Source: Candidatus Woesearchaeota archaeon (GTDB taxonomy: Archaea > Nanobdellota > Nanobdellia > Woesearchaeales > WAPJ01). From it: 14,082 nucleotides of DNA. The stretch lies in NCBI GenBank assembly GCA_015520785.1, contig WAPJ01000007.1, positions 1 to 14,082 on the forward strand, written 5' to 3'. The notes beneath the pieces were generated by a model. It ran no database searches. It saw only the letters and a list, made by a program, of their open reading frames with translations, and had not been told where the DNA came from. Positions 2,221 to 14,082 of the stretch are shown here, piece by piece; the stretch's first letter is position 1, and each line of letters opens with the position of its first letter. The position numbers and the translations under genes are program-made.

Positions 2221-3915
2221 TTATCGCTTCCGCTTCTTCAATGGCTTGACACGGTAAGTCTCTGTGCGTGTGAAGAGACAAGGGATGAGGAGGATGCTCG
2301 CGAGGAGCATGCCGAGGCCGATCATGCGTGGTATAAGCCTCATGCTCGGCAGAAGAGTGTTCTCATCACGGAAGAGTGTGGCGAGCTCGGTAGCATACGT
2401 GTCGTAGAGGATGATCGTTGCGGGACTGCTCAGATTCTCCCTGAGGAGGCTCCCGGCATACTCATAGTACGAGTAGGCCATGATGGGAAAAACGCTGCCA
2501 GCCTCGAGGCTGAGGAGGGATCGTGTCGCATCATGATTCACGCGCGCATAGTCTTCCAGCACGCCCGGGGGGAGCATGCTGAAGAGAATGACCAGTTCTG
2601 CCTCGGCGCGTGTCTTCGCAGCTTTAAACGCACAATAGGCGGGATCAGACGTGCGTGCTGATTCTGCTGCTTGCATGCCCTCCCGGAGGCTCGGATCCAG
2701 GAGGAGTGCATACGAGACCTTCTCACGCGCATGCTCGAGCTGCTCCTGGCAGGCTTCTCTCAGCCGTGTCTCAGCAATGCGAGGATGATCAGGCAAGTAG
2801 GGGAGGAGCATGAGCCAGCCGTGAATACTCGCTGCACGCGCCTCTGCAATCGCGAGCATGTCAAGGAAGCTACTCGTATCATTCTCTTCTAATGCTTTCC
2901 GCGCGTCATCAAGCGCCTTGTCCATCTCGCGTACGCGTTCTTTAAGGATGCTGGCAAGCTGGACGCGTTCAACGCTCGTCCTGAGGAGTGGTTCATGCCG
3001 GCTGAGATTCTCGCGAGCGGCTTGAGCAATGCGCTCCCCCTCATCGAGGAGGATATGCAGGCTTGTCTCATTCATTCTCTGGGCGAGGCGTGCATGCAGT
3101 CCATCCCGGAGGGCGGTGAAACAGTATGACGCGGCAGCATAGTATGCTTCTTCTCTCAGGCTGAGGTTTGCCGCATGGAATTGTCGGCTGAGATTGGTCT
3201 CATTCGCATACAGTCTTGCTTCATGGCAGATGGCTTCTGCAACACGCCGCATCCCCACCCTATAGGCGGATGGTGGATTGAGGGGTTTCTCGCGCGGCCA
3301 GATGCTGTTGAAAGCAGGATTGAACGCGGATGCCGCTTCGCGAAGGGTTGAGACGGGAATAACTTCTACTCCCTCCGGGGGAGTAATGTTCGTCAGGTTC
3401 GTAAAGGTGGAGATGACCACGCGATGAATCCCCTCCTCGGCTGCCGCGTCGAGCTTCTCCTGCACGCCACCCACAGGGCCGATGAGACCGTCCTCGCTCA
3501 GCGTTCCCGTAATGGCTACGCCCTCCTCGAGGGGAATGCCCGTATGGAGGCTTAAAGCACTCAAGGCTATTGCCGCGGACGCGGATGGTCCGCTAATCAC
3601 GGGGGCTTGCGCGTGAATGCTCAGGAGGATGTCAGCATGCGCACAGTCCAGCCGGGCAAGCCTGCACGCTGTTTTAACGGCGAACATGCTCGTAGCCTGC
3701 GTGTCAAGGCGGCTGAGCGTCCCACTATCCGCATAGACGCGTCCAAGACCGGGAGTGATGCGTGCCTCGAGCCATGCGATGACACCCTTGCTCGTATTCT
3801 CATCCTGGCTGACGGCGAGGAGGGGGAGGCTCGCAGAGCGGGGAATGCCAATCGTAAGAATGCTCGCGCCAAGAATGATGAGAAGACTAAGGAGGATGAG
3901 ACACTGCTTCCGCAT
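2221..3915 (-). CDS. Membrane-anchored extracytoplasmic Lon-like (S16) protease
   Basis: This 564-residue protein has an N-terminal hydrophobic signal/anchor (MRKQCLILLSLLIILG), a Lon-type proteolytic domain in its first 190 residues, a long helical region and a C-terminal hydrophobic segment (MIGLGMLLASILLIPCLF) followed by a basic tail. The Ser-Lys dyad is visible: Ser111 in GPSAS, and Lys154 in GPVGGVQEKLDAA (numbered from this start). There is no AAA+ ATPase domain, so it is neither bacterial-type Lon nor archaeal LonB. It belongs to the ATPase-less S16 proteins with a signal anchor that are common in archaea, and the catalytic domain should face outside. The role is unknown; envelope protein turnover or processing is likely. 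An in-frame ATG at 3966 would add 17 residues before the hydrophobic segment. The start at 3915 is preferred because a TATA-like GTTTATGA (plus-strand reading) lies 25 nt upstream, AGGAGG is close by, and the signal then begins at residue 1. Confidence 0.85.
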   Translation of the reverse strand: MRKQCLILLSLLIILGASILTIGIPRSASLPLLAVSQDENTSKGVIAWLEARITPGLGRVYADSGTLSRLDTQATSMFAVKTACRLARLDCAHADILLSIHAQAPVISGPSASAAIALSALSLHTGIPLEEGVAITGTLSEDGLIGPVGGVQEKLDAAAEEGIHRVVISTFTNLTNITPPEGVEVIPVSTLREAASAFNPAFNSIWPREKPLNPPSAYRVGMRRVAEAICHEARLYANETNLSRQFHAANLSLREEAYYAAASYCFTALRDGLHARLAQRMNETSLHILLDEGERIAQAARENLSRHEPLLRTSVERVQLASILKERVREMDKALDDARKALEENDTSSFLDMLAIAEARAASIHGWLMLLPYLPDHPRIAETRLREACQEQLEHAREKVSYALLLDPSLREGMQAAESARTSDPAYCAFKAAKTRAEAELVILFSMLPPGVLEDYARVNHDATRSLLSLEAGSVFPIMAYSYYEYAGSLLRENLSSPATIILYDTYATELATLFRDENTLLPSMRLIPRMIGLGMLLASILLIPCLFTRTETYRVKPLKKRKR

Positions 3916-3939
3916 GAGGCCTCCTGGCAGGGGAAGCGT

Positions 3940-3947
3940 GTTTATGA
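3940..3947 (-). promoter_or_regulatory. TATA-like box of the Lon-like protease gene
   Basis: On the minus strand this reads TCATAAAC. It lies 25 nt upstream of the preferred start at 3915, the same spacing seen for other first genes in the window. The match to TTTATA is imperfect. The AGGAGG just before that ATG offers another route to the same start. Confidence 0.35.
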
Positions 3948-4069
3948 GGCTTTTCCTTCCGCTCATCAGCCCGTCTGACGGAGTGGGCGTGTGAAACGCT
4001 GAGATGGAGGAAGGAGACCGCGCGAGGGTGATGGTAGAGAAGAGCGAAGAGCAGAGAGGAGAGCGTATG

Positions 4070-5514: not shown

Positions 5515-6000
5515 CTATCCCTTGCTCGTGATGAGCGTATGCTCTTTCAGCTTCCAGTCGTGAAAGGTGAATCGTCCCGAGACCCGCTTTCCTTCAAGCA
5601 CATGCGTGAGCCAGTAGGCGTCATCCTCCCACATTTCCTCGAGTGGGAGCTGGCTGATGGGATGCCATGCGGGCAGTGCCTCGTCAGATTCTTCAAGCTC
5701 ACCCTCCCACGCGTCCGCAGTGTAAACGTGGACGAGCATATCCTCCCACGCATCCCGGTGTGGATCATAATTCTCGAAGAAGAGCATGCCCTTCCATTCC
5801 GGGTTGAGGGGTGTGAGGCCACACTCTTCATGACTCTCACGGATGACTGCTTCACGAATCCTCTCCGTGTCTTCCACCTTGCCACCCACGCCATTCCACT
5901 TGCCACTCCCGAAGCCGCGTTTCTTCCTGATGAGGAGAACCTCCTTCTTGGCATGGTTGATGATGAAGAGGAGCGTGTACACGCCAGCCTTCCGAACCAT
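5515..6000 (-). CDS. MTH1-like NUDIX hydrolase (oxidised nucleotide clean-up)
   Basis: This 161-residue protein has a NUDIX box at residues 40-62: Gly40, five residues, Glu46, then REsHEECGL, with Ser replacing the usual hydrophobic residue after RE. Around it are features of MTH1 (NUDT1): KKRGFGSGKWNGVGGK before the box and EEMWEDDAYW (residues 121-130) after it, matching the Trp-Asp-Asp patch by which human MTH1 reads oxidised purine bases. The C-terminal GRFTF also matches. The likely job is hydrolysis of 8-oxo-dGTP or related damaged nucleoside triphosphates to monophosphates in the cytoplasm. It is the third gene of an operon, 20 nt after the DprE2-like gene. Its place beside a sugar pathway may be only housekeeping. 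Action on a nucleotide-sugar pathway intermediate is possible, but the MTH1 signature argues against it. Confidence 0.88.
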   Translation of the reverse strand: MVRKAGVYTLLFIINHAKKEVLLIRKKRGFGSGKWNGVGGKVEDTERIREAVIRESHEECGLTPLNPEWKGMLFFENYDPHRDAWEDMLVHVYTADAWEGELEESDEALPAWHPISQLPLEEMWEDDAYWLTHVLEGKRVSGRFTFHDWKLKEHTLITSKG

Positions 6001-6020: not shown

Positions 6021-6746
6021 TTAGAGTTTCATCCGATCATACACACGTGCAGGTAAACTCCGGAGGATGAGCATGGTATAATACCACCAGCCTGGCGTGT
6101 AGAGCACGTGCTTCCGCTTGTCTAATGCCGTGAGGATGTGCCGTGCCGCGCGCTGGGGTGGTTCTTTGAGGGGGACGCTGACATGCTCGCTCATGCGCGT
6201 CTTGAGGATGCCCGGACGGACTTCAAGCACGTGCACTCCATGCTGTCGGCCATACTGGCGGACTGCTTCCGCATAGTGCGTGAGTGCTGCCTTGCTCATC
6301 CCATACAGGGCATTCCGCTGCTTCGCGCGCAAGGCTGCAACGCTCGAGACGAATACGAGATCACCCTTGAATCCCTCCTTGGTGAGGATGCTGGTGAGCG
6401 TGATCATGCTGAGCGTATTCACCCTGCAGATTCGTTCCGCGAGGCGTGGGTCGAGGAGATCCTCGGGGGGCATGATGCCGTGCGTGAGGATGACAAGGCT
6501 AGGCATATCCTTACGCGCTGCATCGCGGAGGGCTTTCACGCGTGGCTTTTCAGCGTTAAAAGAGATGACGCGCGTCTGGATACCATACCGATAGGCGAGG
6601 TCCTTCGCGGTCCGCTCTGCTTCGCCGGGCGTGTGGCTGAGGAGTGTGAGCTGTCTGACACGCTTCTCACGTGCCAGCTGATAGGCGATACTCTTTCCTA
6701 ATCCTCCCGTCGCGCCTGTAAGCCAGGCATGCTCCCATCGTCTCAT
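6021..6746 (-). CDS. DprE2-like short-chain dehydrogenase/reductase
   Basis: This 241-residue SDR has a nucleotide-binding Gly-rich loop (TGATGGLG, residues 10-17), conserved Asn110, catalytic Ser134/135 in FVSSVAA, and Tyr148 and Lys152 in YGMSK. The C-terminus (HVLYTPGWWYYTMLILRSLP, residues 213-232) is the feature that points to DprE2 (Rv3791), which ends with a comparable hydrophobic amphipathic segment after a WAP motif. In mycobacteria DprE2 reduces decaprenylphosphoryl-2-keto-ribose with NADH to decaprenylphosphoryl-arabinose, working with DprE1. The start codon overlaps the DprE1-like stop (ATGA), and GGGGTGA lies 6 nt upstream, so the pair is translationally coupled, as expected for two halves of one epimerase. 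An SDR alone would be weak evidence; the coupling and C-terminus raise confidence. The exact lipid and sugar are inferred. Confidence 0.85.
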   Translation of the reverse strand: MRRWEHAWLTGATGGLGKSIAYQLAREKRVRQLTLLSHTPGEAERTAKDLAYRYGIQTRVISFNAEKPRVKALRDAARKDMPSLVILTHGIMPPEDLLDPRLAERICRVNTLSMITLTSILTKEGFKGDLVFVSSVAALRAKQRNALYGMSKAALTHYAEAVRQYGRQHGVHVLEVRPGILKTRMSEHVSVPLKEPPQRAARHILTALDKRKHVLYTPGWWYYTMLILRSLPARVYDRMKL

Positions 6747-8056
6747 ACACGCTCACCCCTGATGAGGCCGAGCCGCAAAGCCTGATCGCTCACAAGCTTA
6801 TGCGTTGGATCATACGTTTTCTTGAGGCGTTTAAACCTCGCAGTCTCGCGCGAGTACATGCGCTTAAAGACTTCGGGCGTGAGGAGACTATCCTTCGTCA
6901 AGTAGACTCTTCCCGCATGCTTGAGGATGATCCGGTCAAGCTCCTCAACGAGTCTTCCCGTGCGATTCGTGAGAGGGATATCCACTGCGAAGCTCACGCC
7001 CGGCTGCGTGAAGTCAAACACGCCCCGTAAGCGTTCCCGGCCTGTTGTCTTGAGCACGCTGACAAAACTCAAGAGATGATACTCTTGCATGGTCTTGATC
7101 ACACGGCTCACCGCGGCTTCCGCATGCGCGCGTGGAACGCTAAACTGGTATTGTACAAAGCCACGACCATACACGCGATTCCAGTCGCGGAGCGCGTCAA
7201 GCGGATAGAAGAAGCTGTCAACACTCTCCACACGCCTCCCCGCGGGCTGGAGGGCATAATACGCCCTGTTCGCGAAGCGCATAAACCGTTCGGAAGCCAT
7301 CACCCATCCTGGCAGGCTGAAGGGGACGCGCTTGACACGCTTCAAGGGGAGGCGGCCGGGGATGAAACGCCCACCCATCACAATCCCACGGCCAAGCGCA
7401 GTGCCACGCGCGCTCGTATCGATCCACGCGACCGTGTAGGGCAGTGAGGCTTCCATCCGGTAGAGGATGCGGAGCGTCTCCCTGAGATTACGCGTCTTGA
7501 CATGCTCGGCGAGGATGCGCGTGCCAGGAATCCGCTTCACGCGAAGGGTGACCGTAAGAATAATCCCGAGGAGGCCGTACGAGGCGAAGAAGTGTGTGAA
7601 CGCCCGGTCACGCTTCGTATACGTTCGGATGCTCCCATCAGCGTGGAGGATGGTGAGGGCTTCAACGCTATGAATAAAGCTGCCATGCACGTGATGGTCC
7701 TTCCCATGCACGTTGCTTGCCACGGCCCCGCCGAGCGTGATCCCCTTTGTCCCGGGTGTTATGAGGTAAAAACGCCCCCGGTTGAGGAGCCAGGGGAGGA
7801 GTTCTGCCAGCGTCATGCCCGCCTCGACCGTGAGGAGATCCTGCTCATCATCCCAGTGGAGGATACGCTTTAATCCCCGCATGTCAAGGAGAATCCTATT
7901 CAGGCTGGAATCACCATAACTATAATGATTCCCCGCGGGGAGGATCACGTCAGCCTCGCGCACCGCGCGGACAGCCTCCCCCCATGAAGCGGGTTTAATG
8001 ATGCGTGCCTTCCGGCAGCGTGAACGACTAAAACCACACACGACCTCTTCACGCAT
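6743..8056 (-). CDS. DprE1-like FAD-dependent polyprenylphosphoryl-ribose 2'-oxidase
   Basis: This 437-residue protein, close to mycobacterial DprE1 in size, aligns along its length. FAD-binding blocks are AGNHYSYGDSSLN (41-53), PGTKGITLGGAVASNVHGKDHH (starting at 101, with His117 of the flavin-contacting His-Gly) and ASYGLLGIILTVTL (158-171). The substrate domain has TVAWIDTS (208-215), FFYPLDALRDWNRVYG (282-297), FVQYQFSVP, and TKDS with Lys388 matching the active-site lysine. DprE1 oxidises the 2'-hydroxyl of decaprenylphosphoryl-ribose, at the membrane. The cysteine hit by benzothiazinones (Cys387 in M. tuberculosis) is Ala357 here. It is the first gene of an operon with the DprE2-like gene, with its own TATA box. 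Other VAO-family oxidases such as aldonolactone oxidases are alternatives, but the C-terminal matches and the partner gene favour DprE1. No signal or membrane segment is present. Confidence 0.9.
   Translation of the reverse strand: MREEVVCGFSRSRCRKARIIKPASWGEAVRAVREADVILPAGNHYSYGDSSLNRILLDMRGLKRILHWDDEQDLLTVEAGMTLAELLPWLLNRGRFYLITPGTKGITLGGAVASNVHGKDHHVHGSFIHSVEALTILHADGSIRTYTKRDRAFTHFFASYGLLGIILTVTLRVKRIPGTRILAEHVKTRNLRETLRILYRMEASLPYTVAWIDTSARGTALGRGIVMGGRFIPGRLPLKRVKRVPFSLPGWVMASERFMRFANRAYYALQPAGRRVESVDSFFYPLDALRDWNRVYGRGFVQYQFSVPRAHAEAAVSRVIKTMQEYHLLSFVSVLKTTGRERLRGVFDFTQPGVSFAVDIPLTNRTGRLVEELDRIILKHAGRVYLTKDSLLTPEVFKRMYSRETARFKRLKKTYDPTHKLVSDQALRLGLIRGERV
6753..6759 (-). promoter_or_regulatory. 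Ribosome binding site of the DprE2-like gene
   Basis: On the minus strand GGGGTGA lies inside the end of the DprE1-like gene, 6 nt before the overlapping start codon. The same GGTGA-type site precedes yjbQ and the second GT-C gene. It appears to be the working Shine-Dalgarno of this genome for operon-internal genes. Confidence 0.6.
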
Positions 8057-8079
8057 GCAGAGCGTGGAATGACGAGGGG

Positions 8080-8087
8080 CTTTAAAG
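8080..8087. promoter_or_regulatory. Palindromic TATA box of the DprE1 operon
   Basis: CTTTAAAG is a perfect palindrome 24 nt upstream of the DprE1-like start codon, giving a leaderless transcript. Because it is symmetrical it could also fire on the plus strand, toward a 41-codon reading frame starting at 8108. Confidence 0.5.
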
Positions 8088-8329
8088 GCTTCTGCAGGCT
8101 ATTCACGATGAAGGAGATAGAATCACAGCAGCAGTCCTCTCCACTCCTAAAGGATGAAGAAGAGGGAGAGATAGGCGTTCTTTTTTCTCTTCACCACTCT
8201 CTTCTCAGCATACCCATCTTTCCATTCTTCTGAAGGAGAGATTCATCAGCCTTTTCACGAGCCGGAATGAGGAGAAGGGATTGGAGAGAAAGGAGAGGGA
8301 TAATCGGGAGATGACTGAGAAATACCCTC
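8088..8329. other. Tandem-gene spacer with no firm gene
   Basis: The spacer lies between two minus-strand genes. Positions about 8238-8329 are purine-rich on the plus strand, giving the GT-C gene a pyrimidine-rich 3' flank like other gene ends here. Positions about 8180-8233 are pyrimidine-rich on the plus strand, a pattern seen elsewhere only where a plus-strand transcript ends. A 41-codon plus-strand frame (8108-8233, starting MKEIESQQQSS and ending in IFPFF) covers this part. Its C-terminal half is dictated by the C/T tract and there is no ribosome binding site, so I do not call it a gene. Confidence 0.4.
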
Positions 8330-10093
8330 CTACCAGAATGTTTTCACCCGGTCGCGTGGCGTGGGAATACCATTCAGAATAATCTCTGAGAAGTTCACAT
8401 TCTGGATGCAGGGACTCTTCTTCCGTGCGTACACTGCATAGTAGCCGCGATACGCGTCCTGGCGTTGCTTCCGCCAGACTTCCACGTATTCCTCGCGAAA
8501 ACGGGGATGGGCGAAGAGGAAATAGTTTGGCGGGTTGAGGATGGCGAAGACCATGTCCGGCTCCTCCTGAAAGAAATGAGTGTAGAATGGTTGCATGCTT
8601 GGAATGCTCGTGAGAATACGAGGATCCATACGGATAATCCTGGGGAAGGCTGGTTCTTCAAGCCATTGCTTATTCTCACGCCAGATGCGCGCGTACGTGT
8701 AATTCGCGAGGCCGGACAGGTCGAGGAAGCGTCGCTCACTATAATAGGCTGGAGCGCCAACCTCGCTACTCGCGACGAGGCCTGATGGGCAGAGGTGATC
8801 ACGCATCCACTCGCCAGCGGGAATATACGCGTAGCGGAATGGTGTTTTGGTAATACTCTCCTCCCAGAGGGTAATGCCTGCTTTTGCCTGTGGGATGAAG
8901 ATGATGAGGAAGCCGAGCGTGATGATAAATGGGAGTATCTGCTGCCAGAGAGTGATGCGGGTGAAGCGCTGGGCGAGATGGGTGAGCATGATGAATGCGA
9001 AGGGAATGAGGGGTGTGAGGAAGTAGTCCGCATACCTGCCGAGATCATGGCTGAAGAGGCTTCGGAAGAGGATGCTTGCAAGCGCATAGGCGAGGAGGAT
9101 GAGTGACGTGATCGTGAGGGATGATACGTCCCGCTTCTTCAATGTGGAGAAAAGTTGCTGGGAGAAGAGGATGAACGCGGGGATGAGGATATACCAGGTT
9201 TTGAAGAAGAGCTTCCAGAGGTAGGAGAGCGTACCAGTGAGGGTTATCTCACTCAGCTGAAGGGTCTTCCGATAGGCGGGTGGTGGAGTAATATGGCCAA
9301 AGGTGACTATTTTGAAGAGGAAGTACCAGGCGAGGAGGCTTCCCGCGAGAAGCGTGATGAGCAGATAGGCGTTCCTCTTCTCCTTCTGGAGGAGGGCGAG
9401 GAAGCTCGTAGTGAGAAGGATGCTTGTAATGAAGAATACGCCTTCAGGTCGACTATAAAGCGCGGCAAGCATGCTGAGCGTGAGGAGAAACCACCGCCAC
9501 CAGACGGGCTTGTTGAGCGTGTCGAGAAGGAGGATGAGCGTGGTGAAGATGAACGTGAGGAAGATAGGATTTGCAACGCCCAGCATACTATACTGCAGGT
9601 AAACTGGACTCGCGAGGACGAGTATGCCAGCGAGGATGCTGATGAGATGGGATTGTCCGAGGCGGAGGAGGAGGCTTCGCGTTGCGAAGAAGCTTGCCAG
9701 GTAGAAGAGGAAGGGGATCAGCTTGGAGAGGAGATAGAGATCAGCATGCGTAAGCAGACGTGCGAGTGCGATGAGGATGACAAGGAGGATACTGGAAGCA
9801 CCCTCATCAGGCCCATACGATGGCGTGTATGAGAGCATGTGTGAGGTGATGAGGTTTTCCGCGTAGCGGAGGATCATGAAGTGATCATCATTCCACACGG
9901 CCAGGTAGAGTGACTGCCAGAGGCTCACCAGGAGGGGGAGGATGAGGAGGAAGACAATCCAGGGAGTGAAGGGATGGGCTGCAAGCGTTTCAATCCGTTC
10001 AAGAGGAGGAAGGGTTGGTTTTCCACTCTCCTCTCCTCGCGCTTGCCGTTTCTGCTTCTTCCACTTCTTCCGCTTCACCATACGTGTGATCAT
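8330..10093 (-). CDS. GT-C fold membrane glycosyltransferase, AftB-like features
   Basis: This 587-residue protein has a basic cytoplasmic N-terminus (about 20 residues rich in Lys/Arg), some 10-12 hydrophobic helices, and a soluble C-terminal domain after about residue 400. The first outer loop carries WNDDHFMILRYAENL (residues 67-81), then YTPSYGPDEGASSILLV. This matches the D-D ... RYAxNL ... G.xEGxSS layout of GT-C enzymes such as mycobacterial AftB, where the Asp pair is catalytic. The C-terminal domain (AGEWMRDHL, EVGAPAYYSERRFLDLSGLANY) is also typical of this group. GT-C enzymes take sugars from polyprenyl-phosphate donors on the outer face of the membrane. AftB uses decaprenylphosphoryl-arabinose, which fits the DprE-like genes downstream. 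The start overlaps the GT2 stop (ATGA), so the two form an operon. Donor and acceptor are inferred; a mannosyl- or glucosyltransferase is possible. Confidence 0.82.
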   Translation of the reverse strand: MITRMVKRKKWKKQKRQARGEESGKPTLPPLERIETLAAHPFTPWIVFLLILPLLVSLWQSLYLAVWNDDHFMILRYAENLITSHMLSYTPSYGPDEGASSILLVILIALARLLTHADLYLLSKLIPFLFYLASFFATRSLLLRLGQSHLISILAGILVLASPVYLQYSMLGVANPIFLTFIFTTLILLLDTLNKPVWWRWFLLTLSMLAALYSRPEGVFFITSILLTTSFLALLQKEKRNAYLLITLLAGSLLAWYFLFKIVTFGHITPPPAYRKTLQLSEITLTGTLSYLWKLFFKTWYILIPAFILFSQQLFSTLKKRDVSSLTITSLILLAYALASILFRSLFSHDLGRYADYFLTPLIPFAFIMLTHLAQRFTRITLWQQILPFIITLGFLIIFIPQAKAGITLWEESITKTPFRYAYIPAGEWMRDHLCPSGLVASSEVGAPAYYSERRFLDLSGLANYTYARIWRENKQWLEEPAFPRIIRMDPRILTSIPSMQPFYTHFFQEEPDMVFAILNPPNYFLFAHPRFREEYVEVWRKQRQDAYRGYYAVYARKKSPCIQNVNFSEIILNGIPTPRDRVKTFW

Positions 10094-10824
10094 GCCTTTA
10101 TTTCAAACTTCCATCGTGGCTGGATGCGGAGCCAGAGGAGGATGAGCGCGGTGCGGATGCCATCCCGTACGCGGACTTTCTTCCCCTCCTTGAAGGTACG
10201 GCCCGTATACTTGATAGGCACCTCGTAGATGGTATGACCGCGGCGCATGACCTTCGCGCTAATCTCAGGGTCAAAGCCGAAGCCCTTCTCCGTCAGCTTA
10301 AGGCCTTGGATTGCCTCGCGGCGGAACATCTTATAGCATGTGAGTAAGTCCGTGATCCGTTGGAGGTAGAGGATGCGTGCAAGCATTGTCAGAAAGCGAT
10401 TGCCGAAATAGTAGAGCCAGTAGCTCTCGCGGAGGGGGATGAGATACCTGCTCCCATACACGACCTGGGCGCGCGTGTTGAGGAGCGTGTAGAGCATTTG
10501 GAGCATGTCCTCAGGATAGTATTCCAGGTCTGCATCCTGGATGACGATAATGCTTCCCGTGGCATGCTTGAGAGCGGTTCTCACGGCTGCGCCTTTCCCC
10601 ATGTTCTCCGCATGCTGATAGACGCGGATGAGCTGTGGGTGTGCTGCCTGGAGGCGTTGCATGATCTCCCAGCTCTTGTCATGGCTTGCATCATCAACGA
10701 TGATCAGCTCGATTGGGATGGGCCAGTCAACCCTGAGGACGCGCCGGACGATCTCTTCGAGCGTAGCCTCCTCATTATAGACGGGCATGAGAATACTCAG
10801 TTTTTCCTGACTATAGGATGGCAT
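10090..10824 (-). CDS. GT2 polyprenyl-phosphate glycosyltransferase (DPM1-like)
   Basis: This 244-residue GT-A fold enzyme has PVYNE (14-18), VDDAS (43-47), GKGAAVRTAL (76-85), the metal-binding DADLEYYPED (97-106) and GSRY. This is the DPM1 pattern: transfer of a hexose (mannose or glucose) from a nucleotide sugar to dolichyl phosphate on the cytoplasmic face. It lacks C-terminal transmembrane helices; the last 25 residues form a short amphipathic stretch, as in single-domain DPM1 enzymes. It is the first gene of a unit with the GT-C enzyme, overlapping it by 4 nt. The simplest reading is that it makes a lipid-linked sugar, which may be the donor for that very GT-C enzyme or for another. This weakens any one-to-one link between the GT-C gene and arabinose. 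Its own TATA box lies 25 nt upstream of the ATG. Confidence 0.9.
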   Translation of the reverse strand: MPSYSQEKLSILMPVYNEEATLEEIVRRVLRVDWPIPIELIIVDDASHDKSWEIMQRLQAAHPQLIRVYQHAENMGKGAAVRTALKHATGSIIVIQDADLEYYPEDMLQMLYTLLNTRAQVVYGSRYLIPLRESYWLYYFGNRFLTMLARILYLQRITDLLTCYKMFRREAIQGLKLTEKGFGFDPEISAKVMRRGHTIYEVPIKYTGRTFKEGKKVRVRDGIRTALILLWLRIQPRWKFEIKA

Positions 10825-10848
10825 GCGATGAGCGTTGCAGGGATGGGA

Positions 10849-10860
10849 CTTATAAAAATA
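10849..10860 (-). promoter_or_regulatory. TATA box of the GT2/GT-C operon
   Basis: On the minus strand this reads TATTTTTATAAG, the most AT-rich box in the window, 25 nt upstream of the GT2 start codon. It lies in the 56-nt gap after the nucleotidylyltransferase gene, so GT2 and GT-C can be expressed on their own as a leaderless transcript. Confidence 0.55.
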
Positions 10861-10880
10861 CGGTTTTTGTTGAATACGCT

Positions 10881-12026
10881 TTAGGGGAGGAGGTGATACT
10901 TCCGATAGGTTGGTCGCAGATCATTCCTCACTGGATTAAGACTTCTTAGCGGATACGTAATGATACGCCCGTTCCGCTCCGCGATGATACTATTCTCCAC
11001 ATCCCTTTCGGGATACCATTCAATGCCTGGGAGGATGACGACACGGTTAAGCCTGACGGGACGGGTTGAGTCCGTGGGGAGGATTGTTACGCCCGGGCCG
11101 ATAATTGTCTGTCGGGCATGCACGCCTTCCACGTGCGCGTTGAAGCCGATGATACTCGCTTCAAGCATGCTCTCCCAGACGTGGTCTGTTTGAATAATAC
11201 TCCTTCTCCCCGTGAGGGCTTCTGCCGTGTGGAGCATGCCTTTCACGGTGCCCGTATCATACCATTCCTCTACGCGTACTGGCTGGAGGCATGCGCATGT
11301 CCTCCCGAGATAGGTGAGGAGCTGGTCAAGCCCATATTCTCGCCAGGATGGTGGTGGAACATGATTGAATGCTTCTCGGAGATGCTTGAGAGGGAAGCTG
11401 TAGATGCCGATGAGCGCATCCCCACTCTCAAAACGGTCGGGTTTTTCCTTAACATACCGTTGTCCCCGATCATCCTCGCGGAGAACACCGTACGCCCTGA
11501 CGTCAGGCACGCGCTTCACGCCCACGAGGACAGCATCATCCCTGCTGAAGAATGCTGCTGGCACGCGCCACACGCCGTTCGTTTTGACGAGCGTATCAGC
11601 AAAGTGGATGACGACGCGCGTCTCCTCGGGGAGGGGTGCTGCCTTAAGTGCTTGCTGGACGGCACTCGCATTCCCTTCGGGTGGTTGTTGGACGAGCGTC
11701 CGATACAGGGCAGGATGGGATGGCTGATGGAGGAATGCTGACAGCCGTTCTACAGCATAATGGTTGAGATTGCCAGTGACGATGCGGACCTCGTCAAACG
11801 GGAAGCCCTCCTCAAAAGCATACTGGTCAAGGATGTGTTCGAGCATGCTCTTCCCGGCTATGGGCTGGAAGAGCTTGGGCAGACCATACGCTGCATCCGT
11901 GAGGGGCCAGACGCGCGTACCCTTCCCACCCGCGGGGATGATAAGAACCGTATACGCCTTCTTTTCAAGGCGCGGGACTGGCTGGTATGCGGGTTGGATA
12001 GGGGGAGAGGATACGGTTTCCAGCAT
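10881..12026 (-). CDS. Sugar-1-phosphate nucleotidylyltransferase with C-terminal extension
   Basis: This 381-residue protein has the nucleotidyltransferase signature AGGKGTRVWPLT (32-43) followed by PKLFQPIAGKSMLEHIL (50-66), a HFADTL segment with the metal-binding Asp (Asp144), VKEKP (192-196), GIYSF (207-211) and EWYDTGT (254-260). It would join a sugar-1-phosphate to an NTP, giving an NDP-sugar in the cytoplasm. Glucose-1-phosphate is the commonest substrate in the RmlA-like group, but the base and sugar cannot be read here. Residues about 280-350 look like a short left-handed beta-helix (ASIIGFNAHVEGVHARQTIIGPGVTI is cut short in this quote to ASIIGFNAHVEG), as in archaeal bifunctional or allosteric members. 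The first 25 residues are an unusual Pro-rich extension before the first strand. It probably supplies the nucleotide sugar for the GT2 enzyme next door. A weak TATA lies 25 nt upstream of the start. Confidence 0.87.
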   Translation of the reverse strand: MLETVSSPPIQPAYQPVPRLEKKAYTVLIIPAGGKGTRVWPLTDAAYGLPKLFQPIAGKSMLEHILDQYAFEEGFPFDEVRIVTGNLNHYAVERLSAFLHQPSHPALYRTLVQQPPEGNASAVQQALKAAPLPEETRVVIHFADTLVKTNGVWRVPAAFFSRDDAVLVGVKRVPDVRAYGVLREDDRGQRYVKEKPDRFESGDALIGIYSFPLKHLREAFNHVPPPSWREYGLDQLLTYLGRTCACLQPVRVEEWYDTGTVKGMLHTAEALTGRRSIIQTDHVWESMLEASIIGFNAHVEGVHARQTIIGPGVTILPTDSTRPVRLNRVVILPGIEWYPERDVENSIIAERNGRIITYPLRSLNPVRNDLRPTYRKYHLLP

Positions 12027-12050
12027 ACGCGCATGGCAGGGGAAGAGGAG

Positions 12051-12058
12051 TATTTGAA
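12051..12058 (-). promoter_or_regulatory. Weak TATA-like box of the nucleotidylyltransferase gene
   Basis: On the minus strand this reads TTCAAATA, 25 nt upstream of the start codon at 12026. The sequence is a poor TATA match; the spacing is what supports it. Confidence 0.3.
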
Positions 12059-12078
12059 GGTTTACCCCTAGCAGGGCG

Positions 12079-12088
12079 TTTTATAAGG
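12079..12088 (+). promoter_or_regulatory. TATA box of the UbiA/GT-C operon
   Basis: GTTTTATAAG ends 22 nt before the ATG at 12110, giving a leaderless or very short leader. It sits in an 83-nt gap with the divergent nucleotidylyltransferase promoter, so both directions of the locus start within about 30 nt of each other. Confidence 0.55.
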
Positions 12089-12109
12089 AGAGGAGGGTTC
12101 ACACACACC

Positions 12110-12967
12110 ATGCACGCTCAGGATATCATCCGCCTCCTGCGTGTCAAGCAGTGGGTGAAGAACCTGCTCGTCTTCACAGGTGTCTTCTTCGCTGGGAGGC
12201 TCACGGACCTGCACCTCCTCCTTCAAGCAGTGCTAGTGTTCATCGCGTTCAGCCTTGCGGCAAGCATCGTGTATATCTTGAATGATCTAAAGGATCGGGA
12301 AGCGGACAGGCAGCATCCCGCCAAGAAGAACCGGCCATTGGCGAATGGGCGCGTCACGCCACGCCAGGCAAGCCTGATCATCATCATCCTCCTCATCCTC
12401 CTAGGAGTAGTCTTCGCATTCCTCCCGTGGAAGGTGCATGCCATTATCACCACGTACATCCTCTTCAACCTCGCCTACACCTTCTGGTTGAAGCATATCG
12501 TCCTCCTCGACGTGTACAGCCTCAGCCTGAATTATCTCTTCCGCATCCTCGCCGGAACCACGGGGCTTGGCATTCCACCCTCCGCCTGGCTCCTCCTCTT
12601 CTTCTTCTTCGCCAGTCTCTACTTCGCGTTCGAGAAGCGTGAGCATGAGCTTGACACGCGCGCCGCGAAGCGCGTCCTCAGAGTCTACACGCGCGCATAC
12701 CTGCAGGGGATGCGCCTGGTCATGCTCGGCCTCCTCATCATGACCTATGCGATTTACGTCATGTTCAAACACAAGGCTGGATTCTGGTTCCTCACGAGCA
12801 TCCCCCTCCTCCTCGCCATCTTCGCCTGGCATGAACTGCATGAGGACAAGCTCAACTTTTTCGAAGAAGCCGTCATGGATCCCCTGCTCATCATCCTCAT
12901 CATCCTCTGGCTGCTCAGCGTGAGCCTCGGCTTATACGCTGGCTGGCAGCCACTCCACCTCGCCTAA
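12110..12967 (+). CDS. UbiA-family polyprenyl-phosphate phosphoribosyltransferase (DPPR synthase-like)
   Basis: This 285-residue integral membrane protein has about nine hydrophobic helices. Near the N-terminus it reads RLLRVKQWVKNLLVFTGVFF, close to the RPRQWVKN start of Rv3806c. The Asp-rich motif NDLKDREADRQHPAKKNRPLA begins at Asn58 (NDxxDxxxD, then HPxKxxRP), and LAYTFWLKH (121-129) follows, both as in DPPR synthase rather than in menaquinone or haem prenyltransferases. In mycobacteria this enzyme transfers phosphoribose from PRPP to decaprenyl phosphate, the first committed step to the arabinose donor. In an archaeon the lipid would be a dolichyl-type phosphate. It is the first gene of a plus-strand operon; a second GT-C gene starts 30 nt after it. 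Codons are strongly C-ending (CTC, ATC). UbiA enzymes making archaeal lipids are the main alternative, but they lack the HPxKxxRP stretch. Confidence 0.9.
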   Translation: MHAQDIIRLLRVKQWVKNLLVFTGVFFAGRLTDLHLLLQAVLVFIAFSLAASIVYILNDLKDREADRQHPAKKNRPLANGRVTPRQASLIIIILLILLGVVFAFLPWKVHAIITTYILFNLAYTFWLKHIVLLDVYSLSLNYLFRILAGTTGLGIPPSAWLLLFFFFASLYFAFEKREHELDTRAAKRVLRVYTRAYLQGMRLVMLGLLIMTYAIYVMFKHKAGFWFLTSIPLLLAIFAWHELHEDKLNFFEEAVMDPLLIILIILWLLSVSLGLYAGWQPLHLA

Positions 12968-12997: not shown

Positions 12998-14082
12998 ATG
13001 ATTGTCGTGAACGTGATCATCCTCCTCCTTACAGCGCTCGGTCTCGGCCTCCTCATCCTCCCACAGCCCGCGGAGCGGAAGACGCGTTTCACCCTGCTGA
13101 GCGTGAGCCTCCTCACCGGGCTCCCCGTGACGAGCATCCTCCTCGTCATCCTCGGTCTCTTCCACCTGCCCGTGGCATGGTGGAGTCTCCTCCCACTCGT
13201 GATCCTCGGCTATTGGCGGGGCCTGCGCATCCTTAAGGGAAGACCCTGGTATGCGCGTGATGATGCCTATTGGCTTGTCGCATGGCTCGTCATGCTCGGC
13301 ATGATGCTCCTCATGCTCTCCGGGAGTATGCAGTACCCCTGGCTGGAGGATGGGGATCCCTGGGAGCATGCGCTCACAGCCAGCTATGTGCGTGACACGC
13401 ACAGCATGCTCAAGCCTGAGGGCATGTATATTGCGCATTACCTCCCACCATACCCGCCCGGCATGGCCGTCCTGGAGGGAGCATTCTGGCTGACGGGCAC
13501 GAGTATTGCTTGGCTGAAAGTCTTTATCAGCCTGATTATAGGACTCATGTATCCCGCATTCTATCTCTTCATGCGCAGGCTCACAAGGAACCCGCTTATC
13601 AGTATTATTGCTGTTATTCTTGCTGGGATGCTTCCGGGCGTGACGCATTTCATCTACGCGCAACAACCAGCCTTACTCTTCACACTCGTCGGTCTCGCGT
13701 GGCTCCCACCAGCCGTGAGGCGGGGGAAATGGTTGCCCTACGCGCTCGCGAGTAGCGCGGTGCTCGTCACCCAGCAGATTACAAGCATCTTCCATATTGG
13801 GAGTAGCATCCTCCTCTACGCCTCCATCCTCCTCGAGGATGAGTGGAGGAAGAATATGAGACGGGATACGAATATGGGGGAGGGACGTGAGCGGAATGCA
13901 TCCGCACGAGAAGAAGGAGGAGTATCATCAGGAAAAGGAGGGGAAAGCACAAGAGGAGGAGAGAGGGAGGATACTGCGCGTGTAGCAGCAGGCCATGAAG
14001 CACGCGTGGAGGAGAAGGATAATGATCCACGGCAGGATAAAGGAGAGACGGATAGTATTCCATCTCAAGATAAGAAGAGGAA
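12998..14082 (+). CDS. Second GT-C-like membrane glycosyltransferase (partial, runs off the end)
   Basis: The frame is open from 12998 to the end of the window (361 codons seen; no stop). The start MIVVNVIILLLTALGLG is hydrophobic. Several further membrane segments follow, and a large outer loop carries YPWLEDGDPWEHALTASYV (residues 114-132; Glu117-Asp118, Asp120) and then HYLPPYPPGMAVLEG. An acidic pair in the first large outer loop followed by a P-P-x-x-P-x-G segment is the layout of GT-C enzymes that use polyprenyl-phosphate sugars, though I cannot place the family. From about residue 279 the protein changes abruptly into a long charged, Gly/Glu/Arg/Lys/Ser-rich stretch that still continues at the window end, between membrane segments as far as can be told. 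It shares an operon with the DPPR synthase-like gene, so a pentofuranosyltransferase role is plausible but inferred. In-frame ATGs at 12974 and 12983 are alternative starts. Confidence 0.75.
   Translation, partial: MIVVNVIILLLTALGLGLLILPQPAERKTRFTLLSVSLLTGLPVTSILLVILGLFHLPVAWWSLLPLVILGYWRGLRILKGRPWYARDDAYWLVAWLVMLGMMLLMLSGSMQYPWLEDGDPWEHALTASYVRDTHSMLKPEGMYIAHYLPPYPPGMAVLEGAFWLTGTSIAWLKVFISLIIGLMYPAFYLFMRRLTRNPLISIIAVILAGMLPGVTHFIYAQQPALLFTLVGLAWLPPAVRRGKWLPYALASSAVLVTQQITSIFHIGSSILLYASILLEDEWRKNMRRDTNMGEGRERNASAREEGGVSSGKGGESTRGGEREDTARVAAGHEARVEEKDNDPRQDKGETDSIPSQDKKR

Follow-up and report, generated by a model that had tools for sequence, protein, structure and literature searches.

A putative DPPRS-DprE1-DprE2 gene set for a lipid-linked pentofuranose in a woesearchaeal genome

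Based on its gene content, a Candidatus Woesearchaeota archaeon probably makes a polyprenyl-phosphoryl (probably dolichyl-phosphoryl) pentofuranose, most likely D-arabinofuranose, by the chemistry used in mycobacteria. The window, that is, the whole stretch of 14,082 nucleotides that was analysed, is the entire contig WAPJ01000007.1 of an archaeal metagenome-assembled genome (MAG; GCA_015520785.1) that is 77% complete. An earlier note had proposed a pathway resembling that of mycobacterial decaprenylphosphoryl-arabinose at this locus. All the genes it named are found there, with family similarities far in excess of chance, and its placement of the UbiA and DprE1 proteins holds. The co-occurrence of the three genes in related genomes, which it had set as a test, is not seen in the phylum, and its arabinose product, its surface glycan and the part it gives to the GT-C enzymes are best worded as predictions.

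Gene layout of the locus

The features of the locus are as follows.

5515..6000, minus strand: NUDIX hydrolase, on the strand of the SDR gene and 20 bp downstream from it
6021..6746, minus strand: putative DprE2-like SDR reductase (overlap with DprE1, profiles, PDB, columns, tree)
6743..8056, minus strand: DprE1-like FAD oxidase, putative polyprenyl-phosphoryl-ribose 2'-oxidase (profile, PDB, columns, tree)
8330..10093, minus strand: multi-TM protein, GT-C-like glycosyltransferase candidate (9 hydropathy segments, weak NCBIfam match)
10090..10824, minus strand: GT2 glycosyltransferase (best NCBIfam family AglJ)
10881..12026, minus strand: sugar-1-phosphate nucleotidylyltransferase (best NCBIfam family Arch_glmU)
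12110..12967, plus strand: predicted UbiA-fold polyprenyl-phosphate phosphoribosyltransferase, DPPRS type (profile, PDB, pocket, trees, fold)
12998..14082, plus strand: second GT-C-like multi-TM frame, truncated by the contig end (7 hydropathy segments)

The start of the DprE2-like gene and the stop of the DprE1-like gene overlap by 4 bp (6743-6746). The UbiA gene (12110-12967, plus strand), which reads NDLKDREADRQHPAKKNRP, lies on the opposite strand at a distance of 4 kb from the DprE pair, and this counts against the pathway reading.

The DPM1-like enzyme and the nucleotidylyltransferase of the earlier note are both present, as the GT2 protein (110.6 bits to AglJ, cut-off 325) and its neighbour (73.8 bits to Arch_glmU, cut-off 292.1). 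As for the two GT-C enzymes it placed within 6021..12967, two multi-TM frames do exist, but the second begins beyond that interval and their classification is poor. No Pfam family was found in either protein. The protein at 8330-10093 has one distant database relative and a single NCBIfam glycosyltransferase match, at 7.7e-5 and under the cut-off, and its structure model, built on 2 sequences with a pLDDT of 36.8, is useless. The GT-C label is therefore a weak one, drawn from topology and that sub-cut-off match. Close or identical proteins occur on a database contig of 18,030 bp.

Family placement of the three proteins

In the NCBIfam profile search the UbiA, DprE1-like and SDR proteins all score below the NCBI curated cut-offs. 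The UbiA protein matches the decaprenyl-phosphate phosphoribosyltransferase (DPPRS) family at 4.2e-56 and 190.5 bits against a cut-off of 234; the archaeal relatives that were scanned are likewise under it, and a Flammeovirgaceae UbiA clears it at 241.9 bits. Mycobacterial Rv3806c is the best solved match both by sequence (best PDB match 8j8j, 3.5e-35, vs 2.2e-5 for a prenyl-type UbiA) and by fold (TM 0.86, vs 0.64-0.71 for the prenyl-type UbiA chains at ranks 3-15). Of the PRPP-Mg pocket residues listed in PMC10994848 (R22, K28, Y70, N73, D77, K87, R90, Q135, Y138, K143, Y157), 10 of 11 are retained; the sole exception, Q135, is Asn here and in 19 of 21 bacterial rows. Lys at position 28 is absent from all nine other archaeal UbiAs compared and from 4tq3. 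One tree groups the DPPRS-type enzymes with the protein and sets other UbiAs apart with a support of 98, one long-branched non-DPPRS row (G035) also falling on the DPPRS side; in a second tree the DPPRS-type side receives 100/100 against 3 outgroup rows. The protein thus sits with DPPRS-type enzymes and not with lipid-modifying UbiAs, as the earlier note had expected. It is of the DPPR-synthase type by family, fold and pocket residues, and its activity and lipid substrate are predicted accordingly from sequence. The data do not establish a bacterial origin of the gene. In the best tree it pairs with the UbiA from another genome, G095 (97/90), and falls outside the main archaeal group, but a topology that keeps it with the 32 archaeal rows is not rejected either (p-AU 0.207).

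The DprE1-like oxidase matches the NCBIfam DprE1 family at 1.4e-90 and 304.7 bits (cut-off 500), with the next family at 70.9 bits, and its best PDB match is at 1.2e-54. In a tree of 24 rows with 5 other FAD oxidases as outgroup it branches with mycobacterial and rhodococcal DprE1 (100/100), thus bearing out the proposed placement, as a deep and separate lineage. Identity to Rv3790 extends to 14 of 21 active-site columns, including His132, Lys134, Gln334, Gln336 and Lys418, residues with catalytic or binding roles. The other seven columns differ (R58Y, C129S, S228V, Y314F, G321R, N385S, C387A), and five of these are also altered in most bacterial rows. No relatives of the oxidase were found in a phage collection (E 1e-20) or in viral contigs (pattern scan); when genome contigs were scanned with a pattern, a single Planctomycetota contig matched, at 35% identity.

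For the SDR, the earlier assignment as DprE2-like stands in part. In its favour are the overlap with the DprE1 stop and the best NCBIfam family, PRK07102 (138.7 bits, cut-off 267), which is also the best family of all five SDR partners scanned from bacterial operons; the DprE2 model itself gives 98 bits against a cut-off of 250. The best PDB chain is that of DprE2 (21gq_C, 1.2e-17), followed by another SDR at 1.6e-9, and the YxxxK motif is retained. The tree places the protein with DprE1-partner SDRs (99/99), but with only 2 outgroup SDRs and on a long branch (3.54), and its identity to the compared rows is 29% at best.

Proposed pathway and its alternatives

The pathway would proceed via the following steps. 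The UbiA-fold enzyme would transfer 5-phosphoribose from PRPP to polyprenyl phosphate, and a phosphatase encoded outside the window would remove the 5'-phosphate. The DprE1-like flavoenzyme would then oxidise C2' and the DprE2-like SDR would reduce it from the opposite face to give the arabino epimer, a step suggested by the clade, motifs and gene overlap of the pair. Finally, the lipid may be flipped and serve a GT-C-like enzyme encoded nearby as donor for a surface glycan, as the gene neighbourhood suggests. Several parts were searched for in the 77%-complete MAG. PRPP synthetase was not found there (the same search was positive in 14 of 14 controls), nor was GtrA; PAP2 gave two matches, one with an internal stop and one weak (3.9e-5). 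NUDIX enzymes cleave diphosphates, and for this reason the NUDIX hydrolase was set aside as the missing phosphatase.

The mycobacterial pathway (Rv3806c, Rv3807c, DprE1 Rv3790, DprE2 Rv3791) has three enzyme families in common with the window, as well as adjacent DprE1 and DprE2 and glycosyltransferases close by. In contrast, the window is archaeal, its UbiA gene is on the other strand, all three proteins are under the NCBI cut-offs, and no Rv3807c-like gene, GtrA or Emb/Aft family member was found within it. The same UbiA, FAD oxidase and SDR (PRK07102) families also stand together, often next to a membrane protein, in five bacterial plasmid regions (Ruegeria, Azospirillum, Rhizobium, Sinorhizobium and a Flammeovirgaceae bacterium). 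Unlike the window, four of the five (all except the Flammeovirgaceae region) carry GtrA, and some of the UbiAs are fused to another domain, that of Ruegeria being a protein of 476 aa (PRK08238). In the three-component pentofuranose systems of Citrobacter O antigens, as described in PMC11127046, PPPRS makes a lipid-linked ribofuranose, which an epimerase can alter and which is used by a GT-C enzyme. These bacterial systems carry a HAD phosphatase domain, a MATE flippase and GT136, and none of these was found in the window.

Enzymes of this kind could instead yield a different lipid-linked sugar, or the pathway could halt at ribose or at a keto sugar; the divergent SDR could carry out its reduction elsewhere on the sugar or from the other side, or the substrate of the pair could be some other polyprenyl-phosphoryl sugar. 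Taken together, we regard these outcomes as unlikely. They gain from the long branch and sub-cut-off score of the SDR and from the deep separation of the DprE1 lineage, and passages of PMC11127046 describe xylofuranose arising from the same ribose entry through a different epimerase. However, the catalytic columns are retained, and the same paper links an adjacent DprE1-DprE2 pair to arabinofuranose glycans.

There is little chance that a bacterial contig was misbinned into the archaeal MAG. Two close relatives aside, the DprE1 matches that carry a name are bacterial, and the third-position GC of the UbiA gene exceeds that of all 51 reference ORFs; DprE1 and DprE2 nevertheless rank 27 and 32 of 51 in GC and codon scores, in the middle of the range, and at 0.559 the GC of the contig falls inside the span of 11 other contigs (0.523-0.578). 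The GT2 neighbour is nearest to archaeal AglJ. Searches for archaeal SSU rRNA and S19e, intended to place the genome, gave no match. An S16 protein encoded on the contig has some match in 59 of 59 other genomes, and in 29 of the 59 one match covers at least residues 41-530. Contamination is judged unlikely on the codon use and on this phylum-wide neighbour gene.

It is hardly credible that the UbiA protein merely prenylates lipids or quinones while the FAD oxidase and the SDR do unrelated redox work: generic UbiA and SDR families match too, and PMC8204110 presents the UbiA of Woesearchaeota as a lipid-type prenyltransferase, but sequence, fold, pocket residues (Lys28 among them) and trees speak against it.

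Distribution in the phylum and implications

Of 371 genomes in the phylum, 1 yielded DprE1, namely the window's own, and the co-occurrence in related genomes that the earlier note envisaged is thus not seen. DPPRS-type UbiA is found in 72 of the 371, the window's genome included; most of those aligned belong to a single archaeal group, in which DUF362 and GT-C genes are frequent neighbours. Therefore, the arabinose branch is rare in the phylum and was probably acquired, and a route to lipid-linked ribose could be widespread there. The rarity is read as acquisition and not as wrong assignment because the three genes stand together in the five bacterial plasmid regions. PHP-domain genes lie within two places of UbiA in five cases and farther away in four (p 0.11), which makes the PHP-domain protein only a lead as a candidate 5'-phosphatase.

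An archaeal DPPRS annotation is already in print. In the haloarchaeon Halanaeroarchaeum, the relevant part of PMC4866403 reports a gene annotated, by similarity only, as decaprenyl-phosphate phosphoribosyltransferase; it adjoins a PHP-domain gene and is near an epimerase gene, without DprE1 there.

It is possible, and we offer it tentatively, that the phylum has its own, mostly inherited polyprenyl-phosphoryl-ribofuranose pathway in which DPPRS-type UbiA is associated with DUF362 and with PMT-like GT-C enzymes, a PHP-domain protein being the candidate 5'-phosphatase, the window's DprE1 and DprE2 marking the sole sampled genome that would convert the donor to arabinofuranose. Lipid-linked pentofuranose donors are regarded in the papers considered here as a bacterial device. 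If the arabinofuranose reading is true, the DPPRS-DprE1-DprE2 set would extend them to a second domain, and arabinofuranose would be predicted on an archaeal surface. The phylum's wider group of DPPRS-type UbiA genes would also alter how such genes are usually read, namely as membrane-lipid prenyltransferases, and it offers a context for DUF362.

Identity of the three pathway proteins

The proposed lipid-linked arabinofuranose (DPA-like) pathway involves the following genes:
12110..12967, plus strand, UbiA protein
6743..8056, minus strand, DprE1-like FAD oxidase
6021..6746, minus strand, DprE2-like SDR

The closest solved relative of the UbiA protein is Rv3806c, the mycobacterial decaprenyl-phosphate phosphoribosyltransferase (DPPRS; 8j8j, 3.5e-35), and the next kind is a prenyl-type UbiA (4tq3, 2.2e-5). 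Decaprenyl-phosphate phosphoribosyltransferases account for three of its four best-scoring NCBIfam models, and PRK08238, a UbiA family, ranks third; none of the four reaches its cut-off. The available part of PMC10994848 gives the residues binding Mg, ribose, 5'-phosphate, and pyrophosphate, and 10 of the 11 pocket residues taken from it are retained. The exception is Q135, where Asn stands instead; 19 of 21 bacterial rows also have Asn at this position. Lys at position 28 is absent from the nine other archaeal UbiAs compared and from 4tq3. An AlphaFold model (41 rows, pLDDT 92.2) resembles donor-bound Rv3806c best (TM 0.86), then its acceptor-bound form (0.81), with prenyl-type UbiA chains at ranks 3–15 (0.64–0.71). 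Kinship to mycobacterial DPPR synthase, as the earlier note claimed, is borne out by sequence, predicted fold, and pocket residues.

Against the DprE1 model the oxidase reaches 304.7 bits, short of the cut-off of 500; the next family gives 70.9. In a phylogeny built from 24 DprE1-like rows and five other FAD oxidases, it falls on the DprE1 side (100/100), in favour of a DprE1-like identity over those five. It forms one lineage with two database proteins, 75% and 67% identical, and matches Rv3790 in 14 of 21 checked columns. A natural DprE1-DprE2-like fusion exists in the database protein P0101 (671 aa), which contains FAD_binding_4 and adh_short.

The SDR gene does overlap that of the oxidase, by 4 bp. 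The best family of the SDR is PRK07102, below cut-off, with DprE2 second. As a guide to the function of PRK07102, we examined five of 25 listed plasmid regions surrounding DprE1 matches (63 records matched at E 1e-30). UbiA, oxidase, and SDR occur together in all five, with GtrA in four, and an acyltransferase gene separates oxidase from SDR in one; all five SDRs are PRK07102, above cut-off. Two further regions were added as tree rows, both without UbiA in the stretch examined: Granulicella has the oxidase and SDR, and Rhodococcus ruber groups GtrA, DprE1, an annotated DprE2, and an annotated galactan arabinofuranosyltransferase. The window SDR groups with the oxidase-partner SDRs (99/99), on a long branch and with an outgroup of two SDRs only. 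On a Sinorhizobium alkalisoli plasmid (L092), the UbiA-GtrA-oxidase-SDR set has nodA and nodB at a distance of about 4–5 kb, a proximity that hints at arabinosylated Nod factors.

Genome setting and missing parts

The window is one entire contig (14,082 bp) of a MAG that comprises 691,636 bp in 139 contigs and is 77.46% complete and 0.46% contaminated. Its archaeal nature is based on two genes of other contigs, a TyrRS of family PRK08560 (above cut-off), which we take to be the archaeal type, and a CCA transferase for which cca_archaeal is the sole family at 1e-15 (223.2 of 281.3 bits), and on its relatives; in one of these, for example, the UbiA gene adjoins a gene of aMBF1 type, which scores 102.3 of 110 bits. 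Searches for archaeal SSU rRNA and S19e gave no match. The small size of the genomes and the large number of families would fit a DPANN group such as Woesearchaeota.

The GC content of the window's contig is 0.559, compared with 0.523–0.578 in 11 other contigs that could be used, 68,197 bases in total (eight further contigs were masked and left out). Against 51 reference ORFs, DprE1 and DprE2 rank 27 and 32 in codon score. The UbiA score is the most typical, and its third-position GC (0.80, z 2.1) exceeds that of all 51. The contig also encodes a protein with relatives across the genomes searched:
2221..3966, minus strand, Lon-like protein of 581 aa with an S16 (Lon-type) protease domain

No ATPase family match was found in this protein. 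Each of the 59 other genomes searched contains a match of some kind, in certain cases only to LonB-like proteins; one match spans at least residues 41–530 in 29 of the 59, and the best match is shorter in the rest. From GC, codon scores, and S16 relatives, we conclude that the window genes are in all likelihood native to this genome. The second GT-C-like frame is truncated at the contig end (14082), and three proteins of the window have close or identical counterparts on a database contig 18,030 bp long.

Two PAP2 matches occur elsewhere in the MAG, one with an internal stop and one weak. GtrA and PRPP synthetase were searched for in the MAG without a match, the latter by a search positive in 14/14 controls; since the MAG is 77% complete, each absence is weak evidence. 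PRPP supply is a real gap.

UbiA relatives and their neighbours in the phylum

With the window UbiA as query, 14 of 60 genomes match, and with PF01040, 29 of 60, own genome counted in both. An archaeal DPPRS-type UbiA matches 72 of 371 genomes at 1e-20 (own included), at least two matches being fragmentary (G350, G167). At the same threshold, DprE1 is found in the window's own genome alone (1/371) and in none of 243 good-quality genomes, so the co-occurrence of the three genes in related genomes does not hold. Its absence from the other genomes sampled favours acquisition of DprE1; many losses are also possible.

The comparison took in 32 archaeal loci. Twelve came from the 13 other genomes matched by the window UbiA (G035, without the pocket Lys, was omitted) and 20 from the wider survey, 15 from near the top of the list and five from near the bottom. 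All 32 share R22, K28, Y70, N73, D77, K87, and Y138. R90 is present in 30 and K143 in 29, Thr occupies position 135 in 21, and Y157 is Phe in all. DprE1 was detected at 1e-8 in none of these loci. In the careful tree, whose bootstrap had not converged, all but one of the 32 fall into a single group (31 rows, 81/85), with a firm group of 27 (100/98), and the window UbiA pairs outside the 31 with the remaining one, that of genome G095 (97/90). An earlier quick tree placed 12 archaeal rows in one group (94) and the window among bacterial rows. A tree constrained to place the window with the archaeal rows passes the AU test (p-AU 0.207), so its UbiA may be of either archaeal or bacterial origin. 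The G095 UbiA, with no DprE1 nearby, lies amid metal-transport-like genes and no evident sugar genes (names read from sequences).

A DUF362 family, assigned by scanning one member, is present at most four genes away from UbiA in 15 of 33 loci, none of which is the window:
L052:9303..10379, DUF362 protein near an archaeal DPPRS-type UbiA (14 other loci likewise)

Nine neighbour clusters were compared in the 32 loci; p values are uncorrected, and counts are given for within two genes versus beyond. DUF362 is enriched (15 vs 1, Fisher p 1.8e-7), as are PMT-like GT-C (8 vs 2, p 0.002), DUF2304 (5 vs 2, p 0.03), and the aMBF1-type gene (5 vs 0, p 0.003); GT2 shows no excess (3 vs 11). As the aMBF1-type gene has no evident sugar role, the neighbourhood is partly plain conserved gene order. 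A PHP-domain protein is a candidate for the missing 5'-phosphatase. It is encoded within four genes of UbiA in eight loci (L124, L125, L130, L132, L136, L139, L140, L142), its excess is not significant (5 vs 4, p 0.11), and in a table on the haloarchaeon Halanaeroarchaeum (PMC4866403) a PHP gene adjoins an annotated decaprenyl-phosphate phosphoribosyltransferase gene.

A probable pathway of known type in Archaea

Bacterial three-component systems are described in PMC11127046, in whose available text 'archaea' appears in the reference list only. In their accessible parts, PMC8204110 presents a UbiA of Woesearchaeota as a prenyltransferase of the lipid type and nothing else, and PMC9258230 mentions a haloarchaeal carotenoid UbiA. 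No DprE pair or lipid-linked pentofuranose in archaea appears among the titles and abstracts listed from open-licence literature. The genes observed and the core of the pathway proposal in the earlier note stand, and the probable pathway, itself of a familiar type, would extend to a further domain, Archaea. Beyond the known pathway, putative DPPRS-type UbiA proteins, as judged from sequence, occur in roughly one in five of the genomes sampled from the phylum, and to these the DprE pair of the window seems to be an uncommon extra.
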